From Gammaproteobacteria bacterium RIFOXYD12_FULL_61_37 (GTDB lineage Bacteria > Pseudomonadota > Gammaproteobacteria > Chromatiales > Chromatiaceae), in assembly GCA_001801995.1 (NCBI GenBank), contig MGZB01000017.1:1-64000 (forward strand): a stretch of DNA of 64,000 nucleotides, read 5' to 3'. Shown in pieces: positions 38,154-56,639 of this stretch. Within the stretch, counting starts at the first letter, position 1. The number at the start of each line of letters is the position of its first letter. A program made the translations under genes and the position numbers. The notes under the pieces were generated by a model. The model worked only from the letters and a program-made list of their open reading frames with translations. It was not told the origin of the DNA and searched no databases.

Positions 38154-39464
38154 ATGTCCCAGATTGCAACCCTGATCCTCGACGGCGAGTCCCACGACTT
38201 TCCCGTCATCGTCGGTACGGAAAACGAGCCTGCCATCGACATCTCGACCCTGCGGGCGCGGACGGGGCTCATCACCCTGGATCAGGGCCTCGGCAATACG
38301 GGCAGTTGCCGCAGTGCCATCACCTATATCGATGGCGAGCGGGGCATCCTGCGCTACCGGGGCATCCCCATCGAGCAATTCGCCAACGGCCCCAATTTCA
38401 TCGAGGTGGCCTGGCTGCTGATCTTCGGCCGCTTGCCCACCAGCGACGAATATGCCGGGTTCGCCCGCGAGCTGACCCATCAGGCCAACATCGACGAGGG
38501 GATGAAGCACCACTTCGACAGCTTCCCGCGCAAGGCGGCGCCCATGGCGATCCTCTCCTCGATGGTCAACGCCCTCTCCTGCTTCCACCCCGAGTTCCTG
38601 GAGCTGGACAGCCCGGAGAAGTTCTGGGCCGCCGCCGCCCGTCTCATGAGCAAGATCCGCACCATCGCCGCCTTCGCCTACCGCCATTCGCGGGGCCTGC
38701 CCTACATGTACCCGGACCCCAATCTGAAGTACGTGCCCAACTTCCTGCACATGATGTTCTCCATGCCCTACGACCACTTCATCTGCGACGAGCTGGTGCG
38801 GGACGCCTTCAACCTGATCCTGATCCTGCACGCGGACCACGAGCAGAACTGCTCCACCTCGACGGTGCGCATGGTCGGTTCCAGTCGCGCCAATCTGTTC
38901 GCCTCCTGCTCGGCGGGCATCAGCGCCCTCTGGGGACCCCTGCACGGCGGGGCCAACGTGGCGGTGCTGGAGATGCTGCAAAAGATCCACGAGGGCCACC
39001 TGACGCCCCAGGAATACATGAGACTGGCCAAGGACAAGGCCAGCGGCGTGCGTCTGATGGGCTTCGGCCACCGGGTCTACAAGAACTTCGACCCCCGCGC
39101 CAAGCTGCTGGGCCAAATCGCGGAGGAGCTGCTGCCCAAACTGGGCAAGAAGGACCCCCTGCTGGACATCGCCCGCGGTCTGGAGGCGATCGCCCTGGAA
39201 GATCCCTACTTCGTGGAGCGCAAGCTCTATCCCAACGTCGATTTCTACAGCGGCATCATCCTGCGCGCCATCGGCATCCCGGTGAACATGTTCACCGTCA
39301 TCTTCGCCATGGGCCGGCTACCCGGCTGGATCGCCCACTGGTGGGAACAGAACCAATCCGAAACCCGCATCGCCCGCCCCCGCCAGATCTACACCGGCAA
39401 CGGCCTGACCGACTATACGCCCATGCCGGGGCGTGGCCGTACCCCGGCGGCCACGGAAGGGTGA
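38154..39464 (+). CDS. gltA: Citrate synthase
   Basis: A 436-residue citrate synthase. Catalytic His are visible in WGPLHGGANVAVLEML and MGFGHRVYKNFDPRA, with the Asp in the late YPNVDFYSGIIL. An N-terminal beta-rich domain (ATLILDGESHDFPVIVG) marks the GltA type. GAGGCGAG precedes the ATG. First gene of the TCA/dsr run. Confidence 0.95.
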   Translation: MSQIATLILDGESHDFPVIVGTENEPAIDISTLRARTGLITLDQGLGNTGSCRSAITYIDGERGILRYRGIPIEQFANGPNFIEVAWLLIFGRLPTSDEYAGFARELTHQANIDEGMKHHFDSFPRKAAPMAILSSMVNALSCFHPEFLELDSPEKFWAAAARLMSKIRTIAAFAYRHSRGLPYMYPDPNLKYVPNFLHMMFSMPYDHFICDELVRDAFNLILILHADHEQNCSTSTVRMVGSSRANLFASCSAGISALWGPLHGGANVAVLEMLQKIHEGHLTPQEYMRLAKDKASGVRLMGFGHRVYKNFDPRAKLLGQIAEELLPKLGKKDPLLDIARGLEAIALEDPYFVERKLYPNVDFYSGIILRAIGIPVNMFTVIFAMGRLPGWIAHWWEQNQSETRIARPRQIYTGNGLTDYTPMPGRGRTPAATEG

Positions 39465-39996
39465 GATGCGCTGAAGTTACTTCCCCGAAGAACGCGGAAA
39501 CTGCGTATCCTATTAATAATAGTAAATATTCATTCCGTTAATCTTCTGATAAACCAATCAAATAACGCTAAAATTCAATGCGTTAACTGATTGCGTCTTT
39601 CGTGCCCGGCCTGCCGTGTGACCTCCATTACTCAAAGCATTAATTCATCCAGCACAAAATTGTTTTATGGAGAATCTGGCCTGGATCAACAAAAACAGTT
39701 ATTTTCTTTTGGAGAATAACAAGGCATATTGACCCTTTATTGCATACTGAATTATTTTCCCGCGAACTATTTTGAGACCCGTCACCGGCGGCCACACAAT
39801 AACTCGCTGTTGTAGTATTAATAATATTAATAGACCAGGCCAATGAACGGCCAGATGGGCTTGACGCTCGCCAAAGGCAAACCAGACAAGGCCGCGCCCC
39901 TTGATTCGTCGAAGTGCCCCGAGATCGGCCCTGAAAACAGTTTTTTGAACTCGACAGAAACGATAACTAACGCATCCATTTAGGAGAATTCTTATC
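39465..39996. promoter_or_regulatory. AT-rich intergenic region upstream of aconitase
   Basis: About 530 bases without a supported gene and visibly more AT-rich than the flanking genes. A possible promoter is TTGACC (39729-39734) and TTATTT (39752-39757) with a 17-base gap. AGGAG lies just before the acn ATG. The long leader suggests independent control of acn from gltA. Confidence 0.4.
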
Positions 39997-41916
39997 ATGA
40001 AGCCATTGAATCTGACGGAAAAAATCCTGCTCGACCACTTGGTGGACGGCAAAGAGCTGCCGGTACCCGGCACCGTCATCAAGATCCGCGTGGACGAGGC
40101 CTTCACCCAGGACGCCACCGGCACCATGACCATGCTGCAACTGGAAGCCATGGGCGTGAAGCAGGTCAAACCCCTCTCCGTCAATTTCGTCGATCACAGC
40201 ATGTTGCAGATGGGTTTCGAGAACCCGGACGACCATGAGTATCTGAAGACCGTGTCCCAGAAGCTGGGCATCGTTTACTCCCCGGCCGGCACCGGTATCT
40301 GCCACTTCCTGAACATGGAAAACTTCGTCAAGCCCGGCATGACCGGCGTGGGCGCGGACAGCCACACCGTCAACGCCGGCGGCTGCGGCGCCATCTACAT
40401 GGGCGCGGGCGGCTACGACGTGGCCCTGGCCATGGCGACCGGCGAATACAGCCTGCCCATGCCCAAGGTGGTCAAGGTCAACCTGACCGGGGCCTTGAAG
40501 CCCGGCGTCATGGCCATGGACGTGATCCTGAAGATGCTGGAGATCAACGGCGTCAAGGGCGGCAAGGGCGTGATCTTCGAATACGCCGGCCCCGGCGTGA
40601 CCAGCCTGTCGCTGACCGAGCGCGCCACCATCACCAACATGGGTGCCGAGATGGGGGCCACCACCTCCATTTTCCCCAGCGACGAACGCACCAAAGAATT
40701 TTTGGAAAGCCGTGGCCGTGGTCAGGACTACAAGTCCCTGGCGGCCGACGAAGGCGCCGCGTACGCCAATGTCATCGACATCGACCTCTCCGCCCTGGAG
40801 CCCCTGATCGCCATCTACCCCTCCCCCGGCAATGTGGAGAAGGTATCGGCCCGCGCCGGCGCCAAGATCCACCAGGTCTCGGTGGGTAGTTGCACCAACA
40901 GCTCCTACGAAAACATCGCCTCCTTCGCCGAGTTGCTCAAGGGCAAGCGCGTGGTGGTGGACACCCTGCTCTACCCCGGCTCCCGCGCGGTCGCCATGCA
41001 GTTGGCCGAGGCCGGCTACATGACCTCCCTCTACGCCTCCGGCGTGCGTATCCAGGAAAATGGCTGCGGCGCCTGCATCGGCCAGGGCGGCTCGCCGGTG
41101 AGCAAGGGCATCTCCCTGCGCACCTTTAACCGCAATTTCCCCAAGCGTTCCGGCACCCCGGACGCCGAGGTCCATCTGGTCAGCCCCCTGGTGGCGGCGG
41201 CTTCCGCCCTTACCGGCGTCATCACGGCGCCCCAGGGCGACGTGAGCTTCAAGCAGCAGCCGGTCATGCTGGATACCGCCTCTTTCCTCAAGCCCCTGCC
41301 CCAGGCGGAGGCCGAAAAGGTGCAAGTCATCCGCGGCCCCAACATCATGGCCCTGCCGGATTTCGCACCCCTGCCCGCCAAGCTGGAGGGCGAGATCCTG
41401 CTGAAGCTGGGCGACAACATCAGCACCGACGACATCCAGCCCGCCGGGAAATTCCTGCCGTTGCGCTCCAACGTCAAGGAATACGCCATGCGCGCCACCT
41501 TCAATCAGGTGGACCCGAGCTTCTCCAAGCGCGCCTGCGAGCATCGCGATGCCGACGGACACGGCATCATCGTCGGCCGCGAGAACTATGGCCAGGGCAG
41601 CTCCCGCGAGCACGCGGCCCTCTGCCCCCGCTGGCTCGGCGTGCGCGCCGTGGTAACCACCCAGTTTGCCCGCATCCATGTGGCCAACCTGGTCAATTTC
41701 GGCATCGTCCCCCTGACCTTCGCCAACGCCTCGGACTACGACAAGCTCGGCCAGGGCGACAAGGTCTCCATCGATGTCAGCAACCTGGAAGGCGACATCT
41801 TCCTGGAAGTCAACGGCGAGAAACTCCCGCTCAAGCCCGCCTTTGAACCCGGCGACGTGGAAACCCTGAAAGGGGGTGGCGCCCTGCCATTGTTCAAGGC
41901 AACCTATAAGGGTTGA
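39997..41916 (+). CDS. acn: Aconitate hydratase (short ~640-residue type)
   Basis: A 639-residue aconitase, shorter than AcnA or AcnB of enteric bacteria and matching the compact form found in many anaerobes and sulfur bacteria. The Fe-S ligands are in VGSCTNSSYENI and ENGCGACIGQGG; substrate residues include GADSHTVNAGG and NYGQGSSREHAALCP. Followed by pntA after 27 bp. Confidence 0.92.
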   Translation: MKPLNLTEKILLDHLVDGKELPVPGTVIKIRVDEAFTQDATGTMTMLQLEAMGVKQVKPLSVNFVDHSMLQMGFENPDDHEYLKTVSQKLGIVYSPAGTGICHFLNMENFVKPGMTGVGADSHTVNAGGCGAIYMGAGGYDVALAMATGEYSLPMPKVVKVNLTGALKPGVMAMDVILKMLEINGVKGGKGVIFEYAGPGVTSLSLTERATITNMGAEMGATTSIFPSDERTKEFLESRGRGQDYKSLAADEGAAYANVIDIDLSALEPLIAIYPSPGNVEKVSARAGAKIHQVSVGSCTNSSYENIASFAELLKGKRVVVDTLLYPGSRAVAMQLAEAGYMTSLYASGVRIQENGCGACIGQGGSPVSKGISLRTFNRNFPKRSGTPDAEVHLVSPLVAAASALTGVITAPQGDVSFKQQPVMLDTASFLKPLPQAEAEKVQVIRGPNIMALPDFAPLPAKLEGEILLKLGDNISTDDIQPAGKFLPLRSNVKEYAMRATFNQVDPSFSKRACEHRDADGHGIIVGRENYGQGSSREHAALCPRWLGVRAVVTTQFARIHVANLVNFGIVPLTFANASDYDKLGQGDKVSIDVSNLEGDIFLEVNGEKLPLKPAFEPGDVETLKGGGALPLFKATYKG

Positions 41917-41943
41917 GCAATAACCTAAAGGTAACCTAAGACA

Positions 41944-43509
41944 ATGGCCATGAAGATCGGTATTCCCAAAGAGTGTCACGAGGGGGAACGGCGGGTCGCC
42001 GCCACCCCCGAGACGGCCGAAAAGTTGAAGAAGCTTGGTTTCTCGGTCGCCATCCAGGCGGGCGCCGGGGCCGATGCGAACTTCAGCGATGAGGCCTATC
42101 GCGAGGCGGGGGTCGAAATCCTGGAGGATGTGAAGGCACTCTGGGCCCAGTCCGACATCGTTCTCAAGGTGCGCGCGCCTGAAGCGAACCCTGCGGCATG
42201 CGCCCACGAGACCGATCTGCTGCGCGAAGGGGGCAACCTGATCAGCTTCATCTGGCCCGCCCAGAATCCCGAGCTGATGGAGAAGCTGAAGGCACGCCAG
42301 GCCACGGTGCTGGCCATGGACAGCGTGCCCCGCATCTCCCGTGCCCAGAAGCTGGACGCCCTAAGCTCCATGGCCAATATCGCGGGTTACCGCGCGGTGG
42401 TGGAAGCGGCCAATAACTTTGGCCGCTTCTTCACCGGTCAAGTCACCGCCGCCGGCAAGGTGCCGCCGGCCAAGATTCTGATCATCGGCGCCGGCGTTGC
42501 CGGCCTGGCCGCCATCGGCGCCGCCAATTCCATGGGCGCTCTGGTACGCGCCTTCGATACCCGCCCCGAGGTGAAGGAGCAGGTGGAGAGCATGGGCGCC
42601 GAATTCCTGATGCTGGAATTCAAGGAGTCCGACGACGGCTCCCCCAACACCGGCTACGCCAAAACCATGAGCAAGGAGTTCATCGAGGCGGAGATGAAGC
42701 TGTTTGCCGAACAGGCGATGGAGGTGGACATCATCATCACCACCGCCCTGATCCCCGGCAAGCGCGCACCCGAACTGATCACCGCCGGCATGGTGGAATC
42801 CATGAAGGACGGCAGCGTCATCGTGGACTTGGCCGCCGAGCAGGGCGGCAACTGCGCCCTGACCGAGCCGGGCAAGGTGGTGGTGAAGCACGGCGTCAGC
42901 ATCGTCGGCTACACCGACCTGCCCAGCCGCATGGCGGCCCAGTCCAGCCAGCTCTACGGCACCAATCTGGTCCATCTCCTCTCCGATCTGACTCCGGAGA
43001 AGAACGGCGAGATCAACGTCAACATGCAGGACGATGTGATCCGCGGCGCCACCGTGGTCAAGGCGGGCGAGATCACCTGGCCCCCGCCGCCGATCCAGGT
43101 ATCCGCGGCGCCAAAGCCCAAACCCGCCACGGCGGCCCCGCCGCAACCGGTGAAGGAAGAGAAGAAGGACGGACTGGGGGGCGTCATCGGCCTGGGCATC
43201 GGCGGCCTGCTGCTGGCGGCCCTGGGTCAGGTATCGCCGCCGGAGTTCCTCTCCCACTTCACCGTCTTCCTGCTGGCCTGTTTCGTGGGCTACATGGTGA
43301 TCTGGAACGTCACACCCGCCCTGCATACCCCGCTCATGTCGGTGACCAACGCCATCAGCGGCATCATCGTCATTGGCGCCCTGTTGCAGATATCCAGTGC
43401 GGGCGGACTGGTGGTCGGGCTGGCGTTCGTCGCCACCCTCATCGCCACCATCAACATTGCTGGGGGCTTCCTCGTGACCCAGCGCATGTTGAACATGTTC
43501 CGGAAATAA
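41944..43509 (+). CDS. pntA: NAD(P) transhydrogenase subunit alpha
   Basis: A 521-residue PntA with domain I (AlaDH/PNT fold: [56 protein letters not shown]) and, after a Pro/Ala/Lys linker near residue 390, four membrane helices, so both alpha parts are on one chain as in E. coli. With PntB it couples hydride transfer between NADH and NADP+ to proton flow. Translationally close to pntB (12-bp gap). Confidence 0.93.
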
Positions 43510-43521
43510 GGGGAAGTGGCA

Positions 43522-44937
43522 ATGAATTCAGGTTTACAAACGGCTTTTTATCTCATCTCCGCCATCCTCTTCATCCTGGCCCTGGGCGGCCTGAGCCATC
43601 CGGAAACGGCCCGGCGCGGTAATGCCTACGGCATCGTCGGCATGCTCCTGGCACTGGTGGCGACCATTTTCATGGGCGATCAGGTCCATGGCGGCGGCTA
43701 TGCCTGGTTAAGCGGGGCCATGATCGTCGGCGCCGCCATCGGCTTCTTCCTGGCCATCAAGGTGCGGATGACCGAGATGCCGGAACTGGTGGCCATGCTC
43801 CACAGCTTCGTGGGGATGGCTGCGGTGCTCGTCGGCTACGCAGGCTACTTCGGTCCTGTGGACGACCCGGCCCACACCCTGGCCGGCGCGGCGATGATCA
43901 TCCACGAGACCGAAATCTATCTCGGCGTCCTGATCGGCGCGGTCACCTTTACCGGTTCGGTCATCGCCTTCGGCAAGCTGCGCGGCATCATCACCAGCAA
44001 GCCCCTGATGCTGCCGGCGCGCCACTGGCTCAATCTGGGTCTGGGCGTTGCCTGTATCGTCCTGGGCGCGCAATTCGTCGGCGGCCATCACAGCACCGCG
44101 GCCATTACCGCCCTGGTGCTCATGACCCTGATCGCCTTCGTCTTCGGCGTCCACATGGTCATGGCCATCGGCGGCGCCGACATGCCGGTGGTGGTCTCTA
44201 TGCTCAACAGCTACTCGGGTTGGGCGGCGGCAGCGACCGGCTTCATGCTGAACAACGACCTGCTGATCGTCACCGGCGCCTTGGTCGGTTCCTCGGGCGC
44301 CATCCTCTCCTACATCATGTGCCGCGCCATGAACCGCAAGTTCCTGGCGGTCATTGCCGGCGGCTTCGGCACGGCGGGCGGCACGGTGGCGGCGGCCAGC
44401 GGCGAGCAGCAGGAATACGCCCCTGCCATCGCGGGCGACGAGGTGGCCGAGATGCTGTCCAACGCCAAGGAAGTGGTCATAGTGCCTGGCTACGGCATGG
44501 CCGTGGCCCAGGCCCAGCACACCGTCAACGACATCACCCGCAAGCTGCGCGCCAAGGGCGTGACGGTCCGCTTCGGCATCCATCCGGTGGCCGGACGCAT
44601 GCCGGGGCACATGAACGTGCTCCTGGCCGAGGCCCGAGTCCCCTACGACATCGTGCTGGAGATGGACGAGATCAACGAGGACCTGCCGCACACCGACGTG
44701 GTGCTGGTCATCGGCGCCAACGATATCGTCAACCCCAGCGCCCTGGACGATCCCCACAGCCCCATCGCCGGCATGCCGGTGCTGGAGGTCTGGAAGGCAG
44801 GCGCGGTGGTGGTGATGAAGCGCGGCAAGGGTGTCGGCTATGCCGGCGTGGACAACCCGCTGTTCTTCAAGGACAACACTCGCATGCTGTATGGCGATGC
44901 CAAGGCGAGTGTGGAGGCTATTCTGGCCAGCCTCTAG
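43522..44937 (+). CDS. pntB: NAD(P) transhydrogenase subunit beta
   Basis: A 471-residue PntB: about eight or nine membrane helices followed by NADP-binding domain III with [37 protein letters not shown] and [14 protein letters not shown]. The ATG at 43522 follows AAGGGG; a GTG 6 bases earlier is less likely. Together with pntA it can supply NADPH or NADH to neighbouring redox enzymes. Confidence 0.94.
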
Positions 44938-44988
44938 GCCGTCCAGGAGCCCATTTATTCTTCCATTCCGTTCTGCAAGGAGACCTCT

Positions 44989-45975
44989 ATGGCCAAAGCT
45001 CCCGCACGTGTAGCTATTTCCGGCGCCGCCGGACAGATTGGTTATGCCCTGCTGTTCTGCATCGCCAGCGGCGAAATGCTGGGCAGGGACCAACCTGTCA
45101 TACTGCAACTGTTGGAGCTCCCTAACGAACGAGCGCAGCAGGCCCTGAAAGGGGTCATGATGGAATTGGAGGACTGCGCCTTCCCCCTGCTGGTGGATAT
45201 CGTCGGCACTGACGACCCCAAGGTCGCCTTCAAGGACGCGGACTATGTGCTTCTAGTCGGCGCCCGCCCCCGTGGCCCTGGGATGGAACGCAAGGATCTG
45301 TTGCTGGCAAACGCCAAGATATTTACCGAGCAGGGCCGGGCGTTGAATGAAGTGGCTTCGCGAGACGTGCGTGTACTGGTGGTCGGCAACCCGGCCAACA
45401 CCAACGCCCTGATCGCCATGAACAGCGCCAAGGATCTGCCCAGGGAGAATTTCACCTCGATGATGCGCCTGGACCACAACCGGGCCATGTCCATGCTCGC
45501 CGGCAAGATAGGCGAGCCGGTGGATTCCGTTGAACGGCTGGTGGTCTGGGGCAACCACTCTCCCTCCATGTATCCCGACATCCGTTACACCACCGTTGCC
45601 GGGCGCAAGGCACAGAAGCTGATCGACGAGGACTGGTACCTGAACGAATACATCCCCAGGGTGGGCAAGCGGGGCGCCGCTGTCATCGACGCTCGCGGGC
45701 TCTCCTCCGCTGCCTCGGCGGCCAACGCAGCCATCTCACACATGCGCGACTGGGTGCTGGGTTCAGATGGCCGCTGGGTAACCATGGGGGTTGTGTCGGA
45801 CGGCTCATTCGGCATCCCCGAGGGCATGATCTACGGCGTGCCCTGCGTCTGTGACGGCAGACACTGGGAAAGGATCAAGGATGTGGAGATAGATGACTTC
45901 TCCCGGCAAATGATGAACAGATCGTTGGACGAACTCCAGCAGGAGCACGACGAGATCAGGCACCTCTTCGCCTGA
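44989..45975 (+). CDS. mdh: Malate dehydrogenase
   Basis: A 328-residue NAD-dependent malate dehydrogenase of the cytosolic type. It has the Rossmann start [17 protein letters not shown], the substrate loop [15 protein letters not shown] with its Arg residues, [14 protein letters not shown], and the catalytic His in [13 protein letters not shown]. An AAGGAG site precedes the ATG. A strong terminator follows, separating this gene from the dsr genes. Confidence 0.94.
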
Positions 45976-45991
45976 TTGGATACGAAATGGA

Positions 45992-46036
45992 AAGGCGCTC
46001 AGGGGCAATGTCCCTGAGCGCCTTCTCCCTTTTTAC
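45992..46036 (+). terminator. Rho-independent terminator after mdh
   Basis: AAGGCGCTCAGGG-GCAATG-TCCCTGAGCGCCTT forms a 13-bp stem and is followed by CTCCCTTTTT. The remaining 290 bases up to the dsrC-like gene hold no gene I can support and must carry its promoter. Confidence 0.88.
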
Positions 46037-46326
46037 CCCCGCGCAAAGCCTTCCGGACCTGCCGTTTATAACCCCGGATCAGCACCAACGAAGGCGTCCC
46101 GAATCTGCGCCATAAGTTGACCTCGATCACTTTCCGAACAAGCCCAGGCTACAGCGTCATGCTATCGTAGGTTCAAGGGATGTTTATCACTTCTACCAAT
46201 GTCCCGAGGGAGAAATCGCAGAGTGGTGACCGCGTCCGGACATACCGGCCCGAGGCGAAAGCCAATAGTCACCCTTGTGCAATTATTCCCACAATCTAAT
46301 CCACAGACCCCTAGGAGGGAGTGAAG

Positions 46327-46683
46327 ATGGCGCTTGAAGTTAACGGTAAAATCATTGAAACGGATGAAGAAGGTTTTTTGGTCAATCTGGATGATTGGAA
46401 TGAGGACGTGCCCGCCGCCATGGCTGCGCTGGATGGCTTCGAGCTGAAGGACGATCATGAGGGACTTATTGACTTCTTCCGCGAATATTTCGAGGAGCAT
46501 CAGACCCACCCCACGATGCATCAGCTTTGCAAGGAGATCGGTGGATGCATCGGCGAAACCCATCAGAACCATAAGGCCTTAGGCAAGCACCTTTACAAGA
46601 TCTTCAACTGTGCTCAGTGCGATCCCGTCGCCGAATTGTGCAAGCTATCAGGCCTGCCCAAGCCCCTGCCCGACGGTCAGTAA
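46327..46683 (+). CDS. DsrC/TusE-family protein lacking the penultimate cysteine
   Basis: A 118-residue DsrC-fold protein: DEEGFLVNLDDWNEDV, FFREYFEEHQTHPTMHQL, then LCKLSGLPKP. In DsrC two C-terminal cysteines carry sulfur: CysB (before the GLPKP) and penultimate CysA. Here CysB is retained, but the tail is PLPDGQ, so CysA is missing; TusE shows the opposite pattern. Four other Cys lie in HQLCKEIGGC and NCAQC. The ATG at 46327 follows AGGAGG. It precedes dsrA with a long leader, so a role with DsrAB is likely but chemically different. Confidence 0.85.
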   Translation: MALEVNGKIIETDEEGFLVNLDDWNEDVPAAMAALDGFELKDDHEGLIDFFREYFEEHQTHPTMHQLCKEIGGCIGETHQNHKALGKHLYKIFNCAQCDPVAELCKLSGLPKPLPDGQ

Positions 46684-46692
46684 GGACCCGCT

Positions 46693-46770
46693 GGCGGGGC
46701 TATTCACTGCCCCGCCGTGGGTTCCAGCGGATGGTGGATATAGCTTGCCCGATGCACCGGGCAAGCTATA
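46693..46770. promoter_or_regulatory. Two strong hairpins after the dsrC-like gene
   Basis: GGCGGGGC-TATTCACT-GCCCCGCC (46693-46716) is followed by a 13-bp perfect stem TATAGCTTGCCCG / CGGGCAAGCTATA (46739-46770). Neither has a T-run, so they are not classical terminators. They could be an mRNA-stabilising or attenuating element, or a protein-binding palindrome for dsrA. Confidence 0.55.
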
Positions 46771-47171
46771 GCAGTTAGGTCTTTCCAGTCTCCCCGGCCC
46801 CTTCTTATTACTTCCCAAATACCACAATTGAGAACAGGTTATTGTCTTAATCGGCAGCTTGTCGAGATAGGGGCGCCGGTAGGGACAACCCATTTCACAC
46901 AATGCCATTTGCTTGGCTTATTATACGATTAATAAAATAAATATATATTATTATCAAAAGGATGAGCGTCGCCGGGCATCTGATTCAGAGAATCCGTCCA
47001 GCGAAGGCCCAGGAAGGCGCCGGTCGCCACCTGAATAAAGCCTGAAATATAGATAAGGATCAACAAAACGATCGAATTTGCTGTTGCTCGACCAATTTGC
47101 AGGGACTTAGACTCGGCATTACTTTTTTCATCAACAATATTGAGTTCAAGCTCAGTGCGGGAGGTTTGGTA
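46771..47171. promoter_or_regulatory. Leader and promoter region of dsrA
   Basis: About 400 bases without a supported gene. A strongly AT-rich block near 46915-46965 (TATTATACGATTAATAAAAT) is the best place for a promoter. GGAGG lies 8 bases before the dsrA ATG. I saw no clear regulator palindrome here beyond the hairpins just upstream. Confidence 0.4.
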
Positions 47172-48461
47172 ATGGCTGATAACACCACGGAGAAGAAGGG
47201 GGCGCTAAAGATGGACCTCAATACCCCGATGCTCGATCAACTCGAAGACGGCCCCTGGCCCAGCTTCGTGACAGACCTGAAAGGGCTGGCTGAAAAACGG
47301 CCACAGGTAGGTCAACTCCTCAATCAGCTGGAGGAGTCCTACGAAAACCGCTGGAACTACTGGACCGGCGCAGTCGTTAACGTCTCCGGCTACGGCGGCG
47401 GCGTCATCGCCCGTCTCTCGCAGAAGGCCGATAAATACCCGGACTTGGCCCAGTTCAATACCATTCGACTGATCCCACCTCCCGGCTTCGTCTATAACAC
47501 CGCCAAGCTGCGCGAACTGGCCGACATCGGCGAGAAGCACGGCGCCGGCATCATGCAGTTGCATGGCATGACCGGCGACCTGCTGGTGCTGGGCTTCGAC
47601 AACGAAGGCACCTTTGCCGCCGCTGAAGAGTACATGAAGGCCGGATTCGACATCGGCGGCTCGGGCGGCGCCCTGCGCACCCTGCAATGCTGCGTCGGCC
47701 AGGCCCGTTGCGAAATGGCCTGCTTCGACACCATGAAGGCCACGCGCTTCCTCACCAACCACTACATCGACTTCCTGCACATGCCGGAATTCATGTACAA
47801 GTTCAAATTCAAGCTCTCCGGCTGCGCCAACGATTGCGCCAATGCCACGCACCGCTCCGACATGCCCATCATCGGCACCTGGCGCGGTCCCATGCAAATC
47901 GACCAGGCCAAGGTGGCTGAGTTTATCGACGAAAAGGGCATTGAGGCCGTCATCGACAACGTCCTCACCCGCTGCCCCACCCGCTGTATGTCCTTGAAGG
48001 GCAAGGAACTGGTGGTCGATAACGATAACTGCGTCCGCTGCATGCACTGTATCAACGTCATGCACAAGGCGCTCAAGCCCGGCCTGGACAAGGGGATCTC
48101 CGTCCTCCTCGGCGGCAAGCGCAGCCTGAAGATCGGCGACACCATGGGCTTTATGCTGGTGCCCTTCATGAAGCTGGAGTCCGACGAGGATTACGAGAAG
48201 CTGGCGGAACTCATCGACCAAGTTTGGGAATACTGGAACGACAACGCTCACGACCACGAGCGCGTCATCGAGTTCATTTCGCGTGCCGGCCTCGCCACCT
48301 TCCTCAAAGGGATCGGCATGGAGCCGGACCCCAACATGGTGGCCCGCCCCCGCACCTCGCCTTACATCAAGTTCGAGGAACTGGCGCCGCCGCGGCTCGG
48401 CGGAGAGCAAAACCAGAATCCTCCCGTCTGGCAAAGGGAACCTGAAGTATTGGAATCCTAA
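47172..48461 (+). CDS. dsrA: Dissimilatory sulfite reductase alpha subunit, divergent (DsrA)
   Basis: A 429-residue DsrA. Start TPMLDQLEDGPWPSFVTDLK is family-typical. Sirohaem/Fe-S ligands lie in CCVGQARCEMACFDT (~172) and SGCANDCANATHRSD (~215), preceded by the sulfite-site lysines YKFKFK. A ferredoxin domain has CPTRCM and NCVRCMHCINV (~288). Several normally conserved stretches differ: WTGAVVNVSGYGGGVIARL and GAGIMQLHGMTGDLLVLGF versus WKHGG and GSTGDIVLLG of usual DsrA. Pairs with DsrB in an alpha2beta2 enzyme. Sequence style is closer to oxidative (reverse) Dsr, but the direction is inferred. Confidence 0.92.
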   Translation: MADNTTEKKGALKMDLNTPMLDQLEDGPWPSFVTDLKGLAEKRPQVGQLLNQLEESYENRWNYWTGAVVNVSGYGGGVIARLSQKADKYPDLAQFNTIRLIPPPGFVYNTAKLRELADIGEKHGAGIMQLHGMTGDLLVLGFDNEGTFAAAEEYMKAGFDIGGSGGALRTLQCCVGQARCEMACFDTMKATRFLTNHYIDFLHMPEFMYKFKFKLSGCANDCANATHRSDMPIIGTWRGPMQIDQAKVAEFIDEKGIEAVIDNVLTRCPTRCMSLKGKELVVDNDNCVRCMHCINVMHKALKPGLDKGISVLLGGKRSLKIGDTMGFMLVPFMKLESDEDYEKLAELIDQVWEYWNDNAHDHERVIEFISRAGLATFLKGIGMEPDPNMVARPRTSPYIKFEELAPPRLGGEQNQNPPVWQREPEVLES

Positions 48462-48519
48462 GGGCCAACCGGCACGATCACAGGCTTGATCAAACGAATT
48501 GAATTTTGAGGGGAAAAAG

Positions 48520-49593
48520 ATGAGCGAATCTACCATGGGGCCCAGAAATCAGGGGGCTCCCGATTACAACCTGCACCTCCATCCCATGATGGCGAAGAAC
48601 TACGGCAAATGGGACCATCACGAGCGGCTGAAGCCCGGCGTCATCCGGTATACCGCCGAGAGCGGCGACAACCTCTACGTGGTCCGCGCCGGCTCGCCGC
48701 GCACCATGAGCCCGGCCACGGTCCACAAGATCTGCGATATTGCCGACCGTTTTTGCGATGGTTTCGTGCGCTTCACCATCCGCTGTAACGTGGAGTTCTC
48801 CACCGATAAGGCGGAAAATATCGAGCCCATCATCAAGGCGGTCAAAGAGGAGTTGGGCTTCCCCATCGGCGGTACCGGCAACTCCGTCTCCAACATCGCC
48901 CACACCCAGGGCTGGCTGCACTGTAACCTGCCTGCCACCGATGCCTCGGGTGCGGTGAAGGCGTTGATGGACGACCTGATCGACGAGTTCGAGAAGGAAG
49001 AGATGCCCAACCGCGTCCACATCTCCACCTCCTGCTGCCAGATCAACTGCGGTAGCCATGCGGACATCTCCATCATCGTCCAGCACCACCATGCCCCTCG
49101 CATCGACCATAAGAATATGATGATCTGCGAACTGCCCAAGGTGGTTGCCATCTGTCCGGCAGCGGCCATCCGGCCGAAGATGATGAACGGCGCGACCTCC
49201 GTCGAGGTGGTGGAAGAGAAGTGCATGTACTGCGGCGCCTGCCATGGCCAGTGCCCCAGCATGGAAATCCGCGACGCCGATACCGACACCCTGTCCATCT
49301 GGGTCGGCGGCAAGGCCTCCAGCACCCGTGGCGGCCCATCCCAAATGAAACTGGCGGTGTGGGGCATCCCCAACAACCCGCCCCGTTGGCCCGAAGCATC
49401 GGACGCCGTGCGCAAGATACTTGCAGCCTATAAGGAAGGCGGCAAGCCCTGGGAACGTGTCGGCGAATGGATCGAGCGCATCGGTTGGGCGAAATTCTTC
49501 GAGAAGACCGGCTTCCCCTTCACCAGGTACCACATCGAGGATGGTCCGGACGCGCTGACGACCTTCAACCGGTCGTCCCATGTCCGTCTCTAA
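48520..49593 (+). CDS. dsrB: Dissimilatory sulfite reductase beta subunit (DsrB)
   Basis: A 357-residue DsrB. HTQGWLHCNLPATDASG and STSCCQINCGSHADISII (~170) give the sirohaem-cluster ligands, and the ferredoxin domain has EEKCMYCGACHGQCPSMEI (~233). GGTGNSVSNIAH and the CCQINCG form are of the oxidative rDsr style rather than the CCxNMCGAVHCSD form of sulfate reducers. The C-terminus WIERIGWAKFFEKTGFPFTR is family-like. 58 bp after dsrA, 36 bp before dsrL. Confidence 0.93.
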   Translation: MSESTMGPRNQGAPDYNLHLHPMMAKNYGKWDHHERLKPGVIRYTAESGDNLYVVRAGSPRTMSPATVHKICDIADRFCDGFVRFTIRCNVEFSTDKAENIEPIIKAVKEELGFPIGGTGNSVSNIAHTQGWLHCNLPATDASGAVKALMDDLIDEFEKEEMPNRVHISTSCCQINCGSHADISIIVQHHHAPRIDHKNMMICELPKVVAICPAAAIRPKMMNGATSVEVVEEKCMYCGACHGQCPSMEIRDADTDTLSIWVGGKASSTRGGPSQMKLAVWGIPNNPPRWPEASDAVRKILAAYKEGGKPWERVGEWIERIGWAKFFEKTGFPFTRYHIEDGPDALTTFNRSSHVRL

Positions 49594-49629
49594 CGCCACC
49601 CTGTACAACAAACGAGAGGTACAAGGTTA

Positions 49630-51501
49630 ATGGAACGCACAATATATGCTGATGGGCTATCGCGCGATGAGGTCGAGGACAGCCTCAAACTCTTCGACGC
49701 CCATGATATCGTGGTCCGCAATGGCCGGAGCTGGAAATGCCCGGTCTACGTGCAACGCACGCCGCCCTGCCGGGACGCCTGTCCCAGCAGCGAGGACATT
49801 CGCGGCTATCTGACCAACATCGCCCAGGCCGATTATTTCGGCAAGGGCATGGAACAGGTCCTGGACGAGGCCTGGCACACCATCACCGACAAAAACCCGC
49901 TGCCTGCCGTACACGGCCGCATCTGTCCGCACCCCTGCGAGACCGGATGCAACCGCAAGCACAAGGAAGACGGGGCCGTCGCCATCAACAACATGGAACG
50001 CTTCATCGGCGATCATGGGCTGAAGCGCAATCTCCAGCTCAAGCGGATCAGCGACGAGGCCAAAGGCAAGAAGGTGGCAGTGATCGGGTCGGGACCATCC
50101 GGGCTCTCGGCAGCCTATCAGATGGCCCGCCGGGGCTATCAGGTAACGATGTTCGAGTCCTTCGAGAAAGCGGGCGGCATGCTGCGTTACGGCATTCCCA
50201 ACTACCGCCTGCCGGAAGCCGTCCTCGACGGAGAGATCCAGAAGATCCTGGACCTGGGTGTTGAACTGAAGTGCAACACCAAGATCGGTGTGGACATCTC
50301 CTTCGAAAAGATCCGCGAGGATTACGATGCGGTCTATCTCGCCATGGGCGCCCACAAGGGCGCGAACATGGGTGTCGATGGCGAAGACTCCGCGAACGTC
50401 TTCACCGCCGCCAGCTTCCTTAACCGGGTCAACAGTGGAGCCCAGGTGGACATCGGCCGTCGGGTCGTGGTGGTCGGCGGCGGGGATAGCGCCGTCGATG
50501 CCGCTCGTGTCTCCCTGCGTATGCACCAGTTGATGGAAGACGAGAAGCATCACCTGGATGCCAATGACGAGGCCAAGATCGAGGCTGCGGTGGAGGAAGA
50601 GATCGCCACCGAAGAGACCGTCTCCAACAAGGCCATGGTGGATGCCGCGCGCGCCAGTAAGCGGAAATCCAAGTACTCTGAGGTCATCATGCTCTATCGC
50701 CGCACGCGCGAGGAGATGCCCGCCATCTCCCACGACGTGGACGATGCCTTGACCGAGGGTGTTCGGATCGAGTATCTGGTCGCGCCGGTCGGCTTCGAGA
50801 CCGATGGCGGCCGTGCCACGGCCATCAAGTGCATCCGCATGGCGCTGGGCGAGCCTGACAAGTCGGGCCGCCGCCGTCCGGTTCCCATCGAGGGCTCGGA
50901 GTTCAGCGTCGCCGTTGACACGGTCCTGGTCGGTATCGGCCAGACCCCCGATCTGGCGGGCGGCCTTGAGGCCCTCGCCAACAAGTGGGGCTGGGTCGAT
51001 GCCAACAACGTCCAGGCCACCTCCCAGCAGGGCATCTTCGCTGGCGGGGACGTGCTGGGACTGGGGATCTCCACCAAGGCCGTGGGCCAGGGCCGCATTG
51101 CTGCTCGCGCCATGGACGCCTATCTCACCGGCAAGGAGTACAGGAAGCCGAACATGGGCACTCCGGTCAAGGTGACGGACCTGCGGCTTGACTACTACAA
51201 GCCCGCCGCGCGCAACGAAGAGGGGCAGATCGACCTCGACGATGCAATCACCGGCTTCGGAGAGATCAAGCAGACCATCTCGACCCAGCAGGCCATCAAC
51301 GAGGCGTCCCGCTGCTTGAGCTGCGGCCTCTGCAACGTCTGCGACCAGTGCCGGGTGTACTGTCCCCAGGAGACCATCCATCGCGACAAGAAACGCCCCA
51401 AGGGCACCGTGATGTTCACGGACTACACCGGCTGCACCGGTTGTCATGTGTGCTTCGAGGCCTGCCCGACGGGTTACATCCAGATGGGAATGGGGTTCTG
51501 A
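49630..51501 (+). CDS. dsrL: NAD(P)H:acceptor oxidoreductase DsrL
   Basis: A 623-residue GltD-like iron-sulfur flavoprotein. N-terminal Fe-S region has TPPCRDACPSSEDI and GRICPHPCETGCNR; the FAD motif VAVIGSGPSGLSAAYQMARR is at ~148, the NAD(P) motif VVVVGGGDSAVDAAR at ~277; the C-terminal two-cluster ferredoxin has CLSCGLCNVCDQCRVYCPQ (~560) and CTGCHVCFEACP (~600). In Allochromatium DsrL moves electrons between NAD(H) and rDsrAB. Third in dsrABL; a strong terminator follows. Confidence 0.92.
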   Translation: MERTIYADGLSRDEVEDSLKLFDAHDIVVRNGRSWKCPVYVQRTPPCRDACPSSEDIRGYLTNIAQADYFGKGMEQVLDEAWHTITDKNPLPAVHGRICPHPCETGCNRKHKEDGAVAINNMERFIGDHGLKRNLQLKRISDEAKGKKVAVIGSGPSGLSAAYQMARRGYQVTMFESFEKAGGMLRYGIPNYRLPEAVLDGEIQKILDLGVELKCNTKIGVDISFEKIREDYDAVYLAMGAHKGANMGVDGEDSANVFTAASFLNRVNSGAQVDIGRRVVVVGGGDSAVDAARVSLRMHQLMEDEKHHLDANDEAKIEAAVEEEIATEETVSNKAMVDAARASKRKSKYSEVIMLYRRTREEMPAISHDVDDALTEGVRIEYLVAPVGFETDGGRATAIKCIRMALGEPDKSGRRRPVPIEGSEFSVAVDTVLVGIGQTPDLAGGLEALANKWGWVDANNVQATSQQGIFAGGDVLGLGISTKAVGQGRIAARAMDAYLTGKEYRKPNMGTPVKVTDLRLDYYKPAARNEEGQIDLDDAITGFGEIKQTISTQQAINEASRCLSCGLCNVCDQCRVYCPQETIHRDKKRPKGTVMFTDYTGCTGCHVCFEACPTGYIQMGMGF

Positions 51502-51543
51502 TCCACTGACCCCAGGCCAGGAGGCCAAGGGGATTCAGGCAAC

Positions 51544-51578
51544 AACGTCCGGCGGCGAAAGCCGCCGGACGTTTTAGT
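51544..51578 (+). terminator. Rho-independent terminator after dsrL
   Basis: AACGTCCGGCGGC-GAAA-GCCGCCGGACGTT forms a perfect 13-bp stem with a tetraloop followed by TTAGTT. It ends the dsrABL unit before sucC. Confidence 0.85.
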
Positions 51579-51728
51579 TATGGGACTCCCCTGCCCTGCC
51601 TGCCCAACCGCGCGTCCCCGCGATTCAACCAGGACCGCCCGAGGTCTCCCCCGATGTGGACGCAAAACACTGCTGTGATACGATCGGCAACATTATTGTA
51701 AGACCACAGAAACACAAGGAAACTCTCC

Positions 51729-52895
51729 ATGAAGATTCACGAATACCAGGGCAAGGAGATCCTGCGCAACCATGGGGTCACCACCCCGCGCGGCGTCCCC
51801 TGCTTCTCCGTGGACGAGGCGGTCAAGGCCGCCGAATCCCTCGGCGGCAACGTCTGGGTGGTCAAGGCCCAGATCCACGCGGGCGGCCGCGGCAAGGGTG
51901 GCGGCGTCAAGGTGGCCAAGTCCCTGGACCAGGTGCGCGAATACGCCGACCAGATCCTGGGTATGCAGCTCGTGACCCACCAGACCGGCCCCGAGGGCCA
52001 GAAGGTCCGTCGCCTGCTGATCGAGGAAGGGGCGGACATCAAGAAGGAACTCTACGTGGGCATGGTGGTTGACCGCGTCACCCAGCGGGTCTGCCTCATG
52101 GCCTCTTCCGAAGGCGGCATGGACATCGAAGAGGTGGCCGCCCACACGCCCGAGAAGATCCACAAGGTCTTCGTCGATCCAGCCAAGGGACTCACCGACG
52201 CCGAGGCCGACGACGTGGCCCGCAAGATCGGTGTACCCGATGCCAGCATCACCCAGGCCCGCACCCAGTTGCAGGGTCTCTACAACGCCTTCTGGGGCAC
52301 CGATGCCTCCCTGGCCGAGATCAACCCCCTGATCCTGACCGGCGACGGCAAGGTTATCGCCCTCGACGCCAAGATGAACTTCGACTCCAACGCACTCTAT
52401 CGCCACGAGGACATCCTCGCCATGCGCGATCTGGACGAGGAAGACCTGGCCGAGATCGAGGCCTCCAAGCACGACCTCTCCTACATCTCCCTGGACGGCA
52501 ACATCGGCTGCATGGTCAACGGGGCCGGCCTGGCCATGGCCACCATGGACACCATCAAGCTGTTCGGCGCGGAACCGGCCAACTTCCTCGACGTGGGCGG
52601 CGGCGCCACCGTGGAGAAGGTGACCGAGGCCTTCAAGCTGATGCTCGCCAACTCCAAGGTCAAGGCCATCCTGGTCAACATCTTCGGCGGCATCATGCGC
52701 TGCGACACCATCGCCGACGGCATCATCGAAGCGGCCAAGCAGACCCATCTCTCCGTGCCCCTGGTGGTGCGCATGCGCGGCACCAACGAGGAGATCGGCA
52801 AGCGGACCCTCGAACAGTCCGGCCTGCCCATCATCACCGCCAACGACATGGCGGAGGCCGCCCAGAAGGTCGTTGCCGCCGTTGCCGGCCACTAA
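51729..52895 (+). CDS. sucC: Succinyl-CoA synthetase subunit beta
   Basis: A 388-residue ATP-grasp subunit: [17 protein letters not shown] start, [57 protein letters not shown], and the late [17 protein letters not shown]. It forms the nucleotide-binding half of succinyl-CoA synthetase with SucD. AAGGAAA precedes the ATG; 18 bp before sucD. Confidence 0.95.
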
Positions 52896-52913
52896 GAGGT
52901 AAGAGGAATCCCC

Positions 52914-53798
52914 ATGAGCATCCTGATCAACAAGGACACCAAAGTCGTCACCCAGGGCATCACCGGCAAAACCGGCCAGTTCCACACCAGCGCCTGCAAG
53001 GCCTACGCCAACGGCGCCAACTGCTTCGTCGCGGGCGTAAATCCCAAGAAGGCCGGCGAGACCTTCGAGGAGATCCCCATCTACGCCACCGTCAAGGAGG
53101 CAAAGGAAAAGCAGGGCGTCACCGCCTCCGTCATCTACGTGCCGCCACCCTTCGCCGCTGCCGCCATCTGGGAGGCCGTCGAGGCCGAGCTGGACCTGGT
53201 CATCTGCATCACCGAAGGCATCCCGGTGCGCGACATGGTCGAAGTCAAGAACCGCATGCGCGAGATGGGCAGCAAGACCATCCTCTGCGGTCCGAATTGC
53301 CCCGGCATCATCACCCCGGACGAGATCAAGATCGGCATCATGCCCGGCCATGCCCACAAAAAGGGCCGCATCGGCGTCGTCTCCCGCTCCGGCACCCTGA
53401 CCTATGAAGCGGTCGGCCAGCTCACCGACTTAGGGCTCGGCCAGTCCACCGCCGTCGGCATCGGCGGCGACCCGGTCAATGGTCTCAAGCACAAGGAGGT
53501 TCTGGAACTGTTCATGAACGACCCGGACACGGACGCGGTCATCATGATCGGCGAGATCGGCGGCTCCGATGAAGAAGACGCGGCCCGCTGGTATGCCGGT
53601 TGCTCCAACAAGAAACCGGTGGTCGGCTTCATCGCCGGGGTCACTGCCCCAGCCGGAAAGCGCATGGGCCATGCAGGCGCCATCATCTCCGGCGGCAAGG
53701 GTACGGCCCAGGAAAAGCTGGCCACCCTGGAAGAATGCGGCATCCGCACCACCAAGAACCCGGCCGAAATGGGCCTGTTGCTCAAGTCCGTACTCTGA
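52914..53798 (+). CDS. sucD: Succinyl-CoA synthetase subunit alpha
   Basis: A 294-residue CoA-binding subunit. The start [38 protein letters not shown], and the phospho-His site [18 protein letters not shown] are clear. With SucC it links succinyl-CoA and succinate with ATP or GTP. It ends the sucCD pair; a hicAB module follows. Confidence 0.95.
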
Positions 53799-54021
53799 TC
53801 CTCCTTGCCCCCCCTCCCCACATGCTGTGGTGGCAGGGGGGAGCAAGAATCCTGGACTACCCCAATCAATTCAAGTTTCCACTGACAAAGCTCGACAATT
53901 CCTGGATGACATTCATGGACAAGGAGTCGTAGGATGATTCTGTGGGTTCAGGTCCATCGATGTCCCGCTGCACGGCGATAAACGGGGACAATCCCGGCAG
54001 GAATGCGGGGGGATGTGCTGA

Positions 54022-54210
54022 ATGAAAGTCAGCGAGGCACTCAGAATGCTTCAAGATGATGGCTGGTTTCTCGTCGGGACGCGGGGCAGCCACCGCCAGT
54101 TCAAGCACTCCATCAAACCGGGCCGCGTGACCGTTCCCGGCAAGCCCGGCGATGATCTTGCCCCAGGCACCTTGAATAGCATTTTGAAGCAGGCCTGTTT
54201 GAAGAAATGA
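54022..54210 (+). CDS. hicA: HicA-family mRNA interferase toxin
   Basis: A 62-residue double-stranded-RNA-binding-fold toxin: MKVSEALRMLQDDGWFLV, catalytic His in GTRGSHRQFKHSIKPGRVTV, and GTLNSILKQA. HicA cleaves mRNA and is neutralised by HicB, encoded 7 bp downstream. The gene lies between sucD and fumarase, in line with the TCA genes. Confidence 0.9.
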   Translation: MKVSEALRMLQDDGWFLVGTRGSHRQFKHSIKPGRVTVPGKPGDDLAPGTLNSILKQACLKK

Positions 54211-54217
54211 GGTTCCA

Positions 54218-54430
54218 ATGCGTTACGCCATCGTCATTGAAAAAGCCGAGAACAACTATTCCGCCTATGTTCCCGACCTTCCCGGCTGCATCGCCACAGG
54301 TTCGACGCTGGAGCAGGTCGAGGAGGAGATCCGGGAGGCCATTGAGTACCATCTCGAAGGCCTGCGGGAAGATGGCCTGCCGATCCCAAATCCGGCGAGC
54401 CGGGTTGAGTATATAGATGTTGCGGCATGA
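54218..54430 (+). CDS. hicB: HicB-family antitoxin (short form)
   Basis: A 70-residue HicB antitoxin with the partial RNase H fold: YAIVIEKAENNYSAYVPDLP, GCIATGSTLEQVEEEIREAI, EYHLEGLREDGLPIPNP. No DNA-binding helix-turn-helix is appended, so it is the short form. Its stop overlaps an ATG (54427) of the fumarase frame by 4 bp. Confidence 0.9.
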   Translation: MRYAIVIEKAENNYSAYVPDLPGCIATGSTLEQVEEEIREAIEYHLEGLREDGLPIPNPASRVEYIDVAA

Positions 54431-54483
54431 GTTACCACGCGAAAAACCCCCCACTAGAAACCTCTCATCCAAACGGACGCACC

Positions 54484-55995
54484 ATGACCCTCATCAAACA
54501 AGAAGACTTTATCCAGAGCATCGCCGACGCCCTGCAATTCATCTCCTACTACCACCCCAAGGACTACATCCAGGCCCTGGGCGCGGCCTACGAGCGGGAA
54601 CAGTCGCCCGCCGCCAAGGACGCCATGGCCCAGATCCTCTACAACTCGCGCCTCTGCGCCGAGGGCAAGAGGCCCATCTGCCAGGACACGGGCTCTGTGG
54701 TGGCCTTCGTCAAGGTGGGGATGGAGGTGCGCTGGGAGAGCGGAATGGACCTGGCCGCCATGGTCAACGAAGGGGTGCGCCGCGCCTACACCCACCCCGA
54801 CAATGTGCTACGGGCCTCCATAGTGTCCGACCCCCTGGGCGCCCGGACCAACACCAAGGACAACACCCCGGCGGTCATCCATGTGGAGTTGGTGGCCGGG
54901 GACAGGGTTGAAGTCAAGCTGGCGGCCAAGGGCGGCGGTTCGGAGAACAAGGCGAAATTCACCGTGCTCAACCCCTCCGCCAGCCTGGTGGACTGGGTGC
55001 TGGAGACCGTCCCCAAGATGGGCGCCGGCTGGTGCCCGCCGGGGATGCTGGGCATCGGCGCCGGCGGCAGCGCCGAGAAGGCCATGCTGCTCGCCAAGGA
55101 ATCGCTGATGGATCACATCGACATCCAGGAACTCCAGGCCCGTGGCCCCGCCAACCGCCTGGAGGAGCTGCGCCTCGAACTCTATGAAAAGGTCAACGCC
55201 CTGGGGATCGGCGCCCAGGGGCTCGGCGGCATGACCACGGTGCTGGACGTGAAAATCAAGGACTTCCCCACCCACGCCGCCTCCCTGCCCGTGGCCATGA
55301 TCCCCAACTGCGCCGCCACCCGGCATGTGGAATTCGAGCTGGACGGCTCAGGCCCCGCCCGGCTGGAACCACCCCGCCCCGAGGACTGGCCCGATGTCAC
55401 CTGGAAGCCCAGCGACCAGGCCATCCCCGTCGATCTGGATACCATCACCCGCGAGGAGATCGCGAAGTGGCGGCCGGGCGACCGGCTGCTCTTGAACGGC
55501 AAACTTCTCACCGGCCGCGACGCCGCCCACAAGCGCATCCAGGACCTGCTGCGCGCCGGCCAGCCCCTGCCCGCCGACTTTAGAAACCGCTTCATCTACT
55601 ACGTCGGCCCGGTCGATCCCGTGCGCGACGAAGTGGTCGGTCCCGCTGGCCCCACCACCGCCACCCGCATGGACCAATTCACCGAAATGATGCTGGGCGA
55701 GACCGGCCTCATGGGCATGGTGGGCAAGGCCGAACGCGGCCCGGCGGCGATCGAATCGATCAAGAAGCACGGCGCCGTCTACCTCATGGCCGTGGGCGGC
55801 GCGGCCTACCTCGTCGCCCAGGCGATCCGTGCCTCCCGCATGGTCGCCTTCGAGGACCTGGGGATGGAGGCCATCCGCGAATTCGAGGTGGAAAACATGC
55901 CCGTCACCGTCGCCGTGGACAGCCGGGGCGAAGCCATCCACCAAAGCGGTCCGGCCGAATGGCGCGTGCGCATCGCCGATATCAAGAAAATCTGA
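54484..55995 (+). CDS. fumA: Class I fumarate hydratase (iron-sulfur)
   Basis: A 503-residue [4Fe-4S] fumarase, oxygen-sensitive as a class. Cluster cysteines are in RPICQDTGSVVAFVKVG, a central Cys near WCPPGMLG and PNCAATRHVEF; other landmarks are GGGSENKAKF and GPTTATRMDQFTEMML. I use the ATG at 54484 (MTLIKQEDF, family start). An ATG at 54427, overlapping the hicB stop, would add 19 unconserved residues but allow coupling to hicB. No good ribosome binding site precedes either. Confidence 0.93.
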   Translation: MTLIKQEDFIQSIADALQFISYYHPKDYIQALGAAYEREQSPAAKDAMAQILYNSRLCAEGKRPICQDTGSVVAFVKVGMEVRWESGMDLAAMVNEGVRRAYTHPDNVLRASIVSDPLGARTNTKDNTPAVIHVELVAGDRVEVKLAAKGGGSENKAKFTVLNPSASLVDWVLETVPKMGAGWCPPGMLGIGAGGSAEKAMLLAKESLMDHIDIQELQARGPANRLEELRLELYEKVNALGIGAQGLGGMTTVLDVKIKDFPTHAASLPVAMIPNCAATRHVEFELDGSGPARLEPPRPEDWPDVTWKPSDQAIPVDLDTITREEIAKWRPGDRLLLNGKLLTGRDAAHKRIQDLLRAGQPLPADFRNRFIYYVGPVDPVRDEVVGPAGPTTATRMDQFTEMMLGETGLMGMVGKAERGPAAIESIKKHGAVYLMAVGGAAYLVAQAIRASRMVAFEDLGMEAIREFEVENMPVTVAVDSRGEAIHQSGPAEWRVRIADIKKI

Positions 55996-56115
55996 TGGGT
56001 TGAAAGGTAGTGAACCGCATCATTTGGCCCAGCAGACACGAATGATGCGGTTCGTGCCTCATCGCATCCTACGAACCGATTATTTCTTGTAGACAACGCG
56101 AGATGTAAGGGGGAA

Positions 56116-56394
56116 ATGATCGTGCCTACAATTTCAATGTTCTATGGCATTCTCATCAGAATGTTTTTCTATGATACGGACAAACATCATGTACCCCATA
56201 TACATGCGGAATATCAAGGTCAGATTGCTGTCTATGCAATCGAGGATGGGACTGTGTTAGCGGGTGAGCTGCCCAGAAGGAAACACAAACTCGTCGTAGC
56301 CTGGATTGAAATACATCAAGAAGAGTTATTGGCGGATTGGCAACTCGCTGTTATCGGTAGCAAACCATTTTCAATCAGAGGGCTTGATCAATGA
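56116..56394 (+). CDS. DUF4160 domain protein
   Basis: A 92-residue DUF4160 protein with the family pattern FYGILIRMFFYDTDKHHVPH and HAEYQGQIAVYAI, and a later LVVAWIEIHQEELLADW. Function unknown. AAGGGGGA precedes the ATG. It overlaps the DUF2442 gene by 4 bp; such pairs are frequent in bacteria and look like toxin-antitoxin or accessory modules (unproven). Confidence 0.85.
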   Translation: MIVPTISMFYGILIRMFFYDTDKHHVPHIHAEYQGQIAVYAIEDGTVLAGELPRRKHKLVVAWIEIHQEELLADWQLAVIGSKPFSIRGLDQ

Positions 56395-56630
56395 GACTTG
56401 TCGAAGTTAGGCCTCAAGATGATTTTATCCTTTATGTCATGTCGGAGAACGGAGAGACGGGAGTATTCGACGTAAGCCCATATTTGAATTCCGAGGCTTT
56501 TCAGCCGTTAAAGAACAAAGAGGAATTTAAGAAGATACATAACGGCGAATACTTCGTTGAATGGGCATGTGGAGCTGACTTATCCGCTGACACAATCGAG
56601 GCGCGTTGGAAAAAGCATCAAGCACGATAG
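56391..56630 (+). CDS. DUF2442 domain protein
   Basis: A 79-residue DUF2442 protein (LVEVRPQDDFILYVMSENGE, GVFDVSPYLN, YFVEWACGADLSADTIEAR). Function unknown; partner of the overlapping DUF4160 gene. The pair is more AT-rich than its neighbours, suggesting recent acquisition. Confidence 0.85.
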   Translation: MRLVEVRPQDDFILYVMSENGETGVFDVSPYLNSEAFQPLKNKEEFKKIHNGEYFVEWACGADLSADTIEARWKKHQAR

Positions 56631-56639
56631 GTAAACGCC

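Follow-up and report, generated by a model that had tools for sequence, protein, structure and literature searches.

DsrC2, a DsrC-family protein encoded in the 64,000-nucleotide stretch of DNA analysed here (hereafter, the window), which comes from a gammaproteobacterial sulfur oxidizer, has lost the penultimate arm cysteine (CysA) and kept the other one (CysB). This loss of CysA is real, old and conserved, and it travels with a second DsrAB; the job of DsrC2 therefore differs from the usual carrying of sulfur. We tentatively propose that DsrC2, a member of a CysA-less clade that is encoded in a dsrC2-dsrA2-dsrB2-dsrL2 block, may serve as a dedicated non-carrier partner (a pseudo-DsrC) of an NADP(H)-linked DsrAB2, a reading drawn from sequence comparison that we hold to be possible rather than probable.

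A DsrC-family protein without CysA

As read from the sequence, dsrC2 opens with an ATG at 46327 and closes with a TAA stop.

46327..46683, + strand: dsrC2, encoding a CysA-less, CysB-containing DsrC-family protein of 118 aa with cysteines C68, C74, C95, C98 and C105 (from the ORF, profiles and alignment)
46313..46318, + strand: Shine-Dalgarno-like AGGAGG upstream of dsrC2 (read from the sequence)

The protein matches two family profiles over its full length, Pfam DsrC (PF04358; 91.3 bits against a cut-off of 24.9) and TIGR03342 (86.7 bits against a cut-off of 53.5), and the 57.5 bits given by the TusE model NF008562 lie below its cut-off of 191, placing DsrC2 outside TusE. Among PDB sequences, A. 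vinosum DsrC (1yx3) is the closest. An AlphaFold2 model built from 22 sequences has a pLDDT of 62.5, too poor for cysteine distances; at this low confidence it shows five helices and a beta hairpin, as expected, and all of its top eight PDB matches are DsrC-family proteins (best 1yx3, E 4e-5). A phage or plasmid origin of the gene was rejected, as matches there are only TusE-level (32-35%).

CysB of DsrC2 is C105, within ELCKLSGLPKP. The tail, ..GLPKPLPDGQ, stands where canonical DsrC has ..GLPKPTGC[VI], and CysA is absent. When canonical DsrC is defined by CysB plus a penultimate CysA (a CxxxxxxxxxxC arm), DsrC2 falls outside the definition for want of CysA. The first, sequence-only reading of this DNA had described the same arrangement, with CysB kept before GLPKP, CysA lost and the end PLPDGQ, and both the ORF and the alignment agree. 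The four extra cysteines it had counted, an NCAQC pair among them, were likewise found (C68, C74, C95 and C98), C95 and C98 arriving in the alignment with a 3-residue insertion.

Another species of the genus (G001, locus L126, contig JAHJDE010000117) has a dsrC2 that is 91% identical at the amino-acid level, stands in the same gene order and ends in PLPDGQ as in the window, with each of the five cysteines present. Comparison of the two genes gives a dN/dS of about 0.06 (0.040/0.70), showing that dsrC2 is under purifying selection. A GCV tail was sought in every reading frame across and after the dsrC2 stop, and none was found. The contigs are draft, but the identical tail in an independent genome of the same genus, the low dN/dS and the lack of GCV in any frame rule out a frameshift or assembly error hiding such a tail, which the sequence-only reading had named as one case that would overturn it, and leave practically no chance that a sequencing error or a decaying pseudogene conceals one.

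The second dsrABL and its link to dsrC2

The dsrA ORF lies 522 bp downstream of dsrC2. The genes and features around dsrC2 are as follows.

41944..45975, + strand: pntA and pntB (NAD(P) transhydrogenase) and mdh, the left flank of the block
46685..46723, + strand: strong GC-rich hairpin of -36 kcal/mol (z -3.9) immediately downstream of the dsrC2 stop, with no T-run
47214..48461, + strand: dsrA2, a second DsrA, whose ORF opens with TTG at 47097 and whose conserved part runs from about 47214
48499..49593, + strand: dsrB2, with the cluster/siroheme cysteines HTQGWLHC and SCCQINC conserved
49630..51501, + strand: dsrL2, an NAD(P)H:acceptor oxidoreductase of 623 aa (from profiles and motif)
51729..53798, + strand: sucC and sucD, the right flank of the block

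By the motifs given in PMC8190135, DsrA2 retains the substrate-binding R, R, KFKFK and HER as well as the Fe-S cysteines. DsrL2 carries a YRR motif (VIMLYRRTREEMPA) that is absent at that position from DsrL1, and YRR is the mark of NADP(H)-specific DsrL-2 (PMC7596348). A genome scan with DsrA2 gave identities of 92% within the genus, 72-76% (best segment) in gammaproteobacterial MAGs, 66-72% in Magnetococcales, 61-65% in Nitrospinota and 59-61% in actinobacterial MAGs, and returned contigs of UR-1, SURF_19 and UBA9963. SURF_19 and UBA9963 have an oxidative-type DsrA with DsrL-2 (PMC7596348), and the type of the second dsrAB of Ca. Magnetaquicoccus UR-1 is said to need confirmation (PMC6783814). 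Taking the reference lineages of rDsrABL-2 as defined in PMC7596348, the window neighbours combine YRR at the DsrL NAD(P) site with a DsrA in the SURF_19/UBA9963 oxidative-type lineage; by these marks, the genome's second dsrAB set, the one in the window, is of the rDsrABL-2 type and its DsrL is NADP-type.

The set counts as the second because canonical DsrC lies in a full dsr operon elsewhere in the window genome (G000). Contig C11 holds dsrA1B1, dsrEFH, a canonical dsrC (CRYAGLPKPTGCV) and homologs of dsrM, K, L1, O, P, N and R, all named by position and sequence inspection; this dsrC adjoins dsrEFH/dsrMK, and DsrA2 is 49% identical to the DsrA1 of the genome. The canonical dsrC that had been suggested as a check on the earlier reading is thus present, which rules out DsrC2 as the sole DsrC of a genome that has six DsrC-family genes (dsrC2 and five others). 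A DsrC paralog without an arm cysteine, ending GLPHVNRKGGY, lies upstream of dsrA1 in opposite orientation (C11, 35589-35894; L002), and Cys-less paralogs of this RKGGY type occur in many dsr-bearing gammaproteobacteria.

Siroheme-type matches in the window genome comprise the two DsrAB sets and a single NirB-like protein of 838 aa, with no CysI/Sir-type assimilatory sulfite reductase seen there, and in several relatives the two DsrAB sets are the only such matches. CysI/Sir-sized siroheme enzymes are absent from the window genus and most relatives. Replacement of a missing assimilatory sulfite reductase by DsrABL2 was rejected as a general explanation because one relative (G405) has such an enzyme beside the block.

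At all eight loci of its subclade (the window, L126, L127, L128, L130, L131, L132 and L170), dsrC2 adjoins dsrA2-B2-L2, so that the neighbourhood with dsrAB first noticed in the window proves to be a real and conserved link. The flanks of the block, whose genes were named by inspection, fall into four contexts.

Window genus: TCA/pnt cluster
L128, L130, L131 and L170: gpsA/secB-like genes
L127: molybdopterin oxidoreductase cluster, with dsrC2 divergent from dsrA2
L132: other genes

Simple co-transcription of dsrC2 and dsrA2 is disfavoured by the distance of 522 bp between them, by the hairpin that follows dsrC2 and by their divergent arrangement at L127. A weaker hairpin stands at the matching place in the same-genus genome; the very stable one at 46685-46723 could mean that processing or attenuation takes place between the two genes. 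In another genome of the same family (G033), pntA-pntB-mdh-sucC-sucD are contiguous, and in the window genus four dsr genes stand between mdh and sucC, a position that insertion of one block would give, the alternative being loss in G033. The block is enclosed by a TCA-cycle cluster (38154-58091; citrate synthase, aconitase, pntAB, mdh, sucCD, fumarase and aldehyde dehydrogenase), and the rTCA cluster of Endoriftia likewise includes pntAB (PMC11636981).

Each genome with the dsrC2 block (G000, G001 and G401-G406) has one DsrK of >60% identity in addition to canonical DsrC. In two genomes with a sister DsrAB2 (G228 and G409), the dsrAB2 contig itself encodes canonical DsrC together with a second DsrMK. 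The presence of a CysA-less DsrC and the absence of a dedicated DsrMK go together.

Other extra dsrAB genes were also observed. Two genomes, G366 and G088 (L186:9608-12645 and L187:6463-10171), have another extra dsrAB, with DsrA at 62-63% to DsrA1, no dsrL found near it and a different CysB-only DsrC (..CKIAGM[KR]RPRAWSTG) just downstream of dsrB; a CysA-less DsrC is here paired with an extra dsrAB for a second time, apparently separately from the dsrC2 block. Extra dsrA-dsrB pairs occur at L188, L189, L190 and L191 as well (62-66% to DsrA1), with no other dsr genes found within several kb of them.

The CysA-less clade and the proposed role of DsrC2

In a tree of the DsrC family, 30 CysA-less proteins with a KLAGLP-type arm are monophyletic (support 0.99) and the eight dsrAB2-linked DsrC2 proteins form a subclade (support 0.97), deeper nodes being weakly supported. 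The clade is separate from canonical DsrC, from the Cys-less RKGGY paralogs and from a second CysB-only group (GMRxP). All 21 clade members in the class sample are hosted by dsrA-positive genomes, which make up 117 of the 369 genomes overall (nominal p about 1e-11, shared ancestry ignored), and the clade has so far been found only in dsr-bearing gammaproteobacteria. Most members are unlinked to dsrAB and belong to genomes without DsrAB2, which argues that the original role of the clade was not DsrAB2-specific; constant neighbours of these unlinked members were sought, and none were found. Two adjacent and different DsrC-family genes on opposite strands were seen at L256:4456-5286 (G322), and at L267:1-2040 (G097) a motif (..QQFAAEN.. 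/ ..RFSAANCCGLIEA..) is repeated in spurious ORFs near a CysA-less dsrC, which resembles a CRISPR array or another kind of repeat array.

The penultimate Cys111 is the sole binding site for persulfide and sulfite in A. vinosum DsrC, where binding does not require Cys100 (CysB) (PMC3397948). CysA is also the residue on which canonical DsrC takes up sulfur from DsrEFH. Because CysA alone binds sulfur, DsrC2 is unable to carry sulfur in the known way or to form a CysA-CysB trisulfide, which bears out the initial view that standard DsrC chemistry is closed to it. An accessory or gating partner is favoured because DsrC2 has kept CysB, the arm as far as KP and its link to a DsrAB whose catalytic residues look intact, with an NADP-type DsrL. 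We infer that DsrC2 would dock on DsrAB2 via the retained arm (CKLAGLPKP), with no persulfide to present and no trisulfide to form. As an accessory or gating subunit, it might fill the DsrC site of DsrAB2 and shut out canonical DsrC, and hence DsrMK; DsrAB2 could then work directly with DsrL-2 and NADP(H), in the direction of either sulfite reduction or sulfide/sulfur oxidation, the NADP(H) of DsrL2 plausibly being balanced in the window genus by the neighbouring PntAB. Sulfite reduction with NADH has been obtained in vitro with DsrABL-1A (PMC7596348). That DsrC2 acts as a cap or gate on the DsrAB2 channel for DsrC and uncouples the enzyme from DsrMK, so that one cell has a soluble DSR branch linked to NADP(H) as well as the classical one coupled through DsrC/DsrMKJOP, is a more speculative proposal, suggested by gene content and motifs, which we regard as rather unlikely.

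Unlikely, too, is that DsrC2 acts as an RspA-like transcriptional or redox regulator, which would bind DNA or sense sulfur via CysB and control dsrAB2L2 or other dsr genes. Most clade members are solitary and have no fixed neighbours, dsrC2 is divergent from dsrA2 at L127, another, Cys-less DsrC paralog lies upstream of dsrA1 in the window genome, and canonical DsrC of A. vinosum has been proposed as a DNA-binding regulator, all of which would suit such a role. A regulator would not obviously need the CKLAGLPKP arm, however, which is the best-conserved part of the clade (mean top-residue frequency of 0.83 in residues 100-113 versus 0.61 in the rest), and DsrC2 stands apart in trees from the RKGGY paralogs adjoining dsrA1.

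Even less can be said for a one-cysteine thiol partner, in which C105 would form a mixed disulfide or hold sulfur of its own, for example by acting in trans to resolve the persulfide on CysA of canonical DsrC, or by being reduced by DsrL2. All eight dsrAB2-linked members have CysB, and each of their genomes has a canonical DsrC, but across the clade CysB is kept in 25 of 30 members, with Ser or Ala in the other five, and Cys100 of A. vinosum binds neither sulfur nor sulfite (PMC3397948).

The four extra cysteines occur in the window genus only, and neither the other six dsrAB2-linked orthologs nor the unlinked relatives have them; the suggestion of a sulfur carrier using another Cys pair therefore fails as a general mechanism. 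An innovation of the window genus, in which C68, C74, C95 and C98 would ligate a metal ion or an Fe-S cluster, or act as an additional redox pair, is improbable. Both genus members share the C-x5-C and the C-x2-C, the latter made by the 3-residue insertion, but relatives beside the same dsrAB2 do without these cysteines, the predicted structure is too poor to place them, and their conservation is weak evidence because it spans two species at 91% identity.

The reading of DsrC2 as a non-carrier partner bears on how the pathway is understood, since DSR pathways are regarded as centred on DsrC-trisulfide chemistry and CysA as indispensable. A CysA-less DsrC that is conserved, under selection and linked in a block with an NADP-type DsrL and a DsrAB that looks catalytically intact suggests that certain DsrAB enzymes may bypass the DsrC trisulfide/DsrMK step. 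Labelling CysA-less genes dsrC overstates their function.

Comparison with known systems

The nearest known kind is that of DsrC-like proteins without CysA. What appears to be new is the conserved coupling of a CysA-less DsrC to a second, NADP-type dsrABL in gammaproteobacteria; within the limited coverage of the open literature, no prior report of this coupling was found, nor any relevant paper on RspA with DsrC or on CysA/CysB with DsrC.

DsrC2 shares with the DsrC proteins of A. vinosum (1YX3) and D. vulgaris (2V4J chain C) the family, CysB, the GLPKP arm and a dsrAB neighbour. Unlike them, it is without CysA, has a 4-residue insertion ahead of the fourth helix and another tail, and cannot make a CysA persulfide or a CysA-CysB trisulfide. 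With TusE it has in common the Pfam/TIGR family and a single C-terminal arm cysteine, but TusE keeps CysA and is without CysB, whereas DsrC2 is the reverse. RspA proteins are DsrC-like proteins that are CysA-less or Cys-less, and DsrC2, having no CysA, presumably qualifies as RspA-type. Under that definition, DsrC2 shares the absence of CysA and its place among several DsrC paralogs per genome, but it falls in a different clade from the Cys-less RKGGY paralogs that adjoin dsrA1, and it is linked to a second dsrABL.

Compared with the second dsrABL of Magnetococcales and the rDsrABL-2 of Nitrospinota and Gaiellales (PMC6783814, PMC7596348), DsrA2 and DsrL2 belong to the same lineage. The Magnetococcales genomes tested have one DsrC, which is canonical, and none near dsrABL, and Nitrospinota clusters hold a canonical DsrC, whereas the window block holds a CysA-less one.
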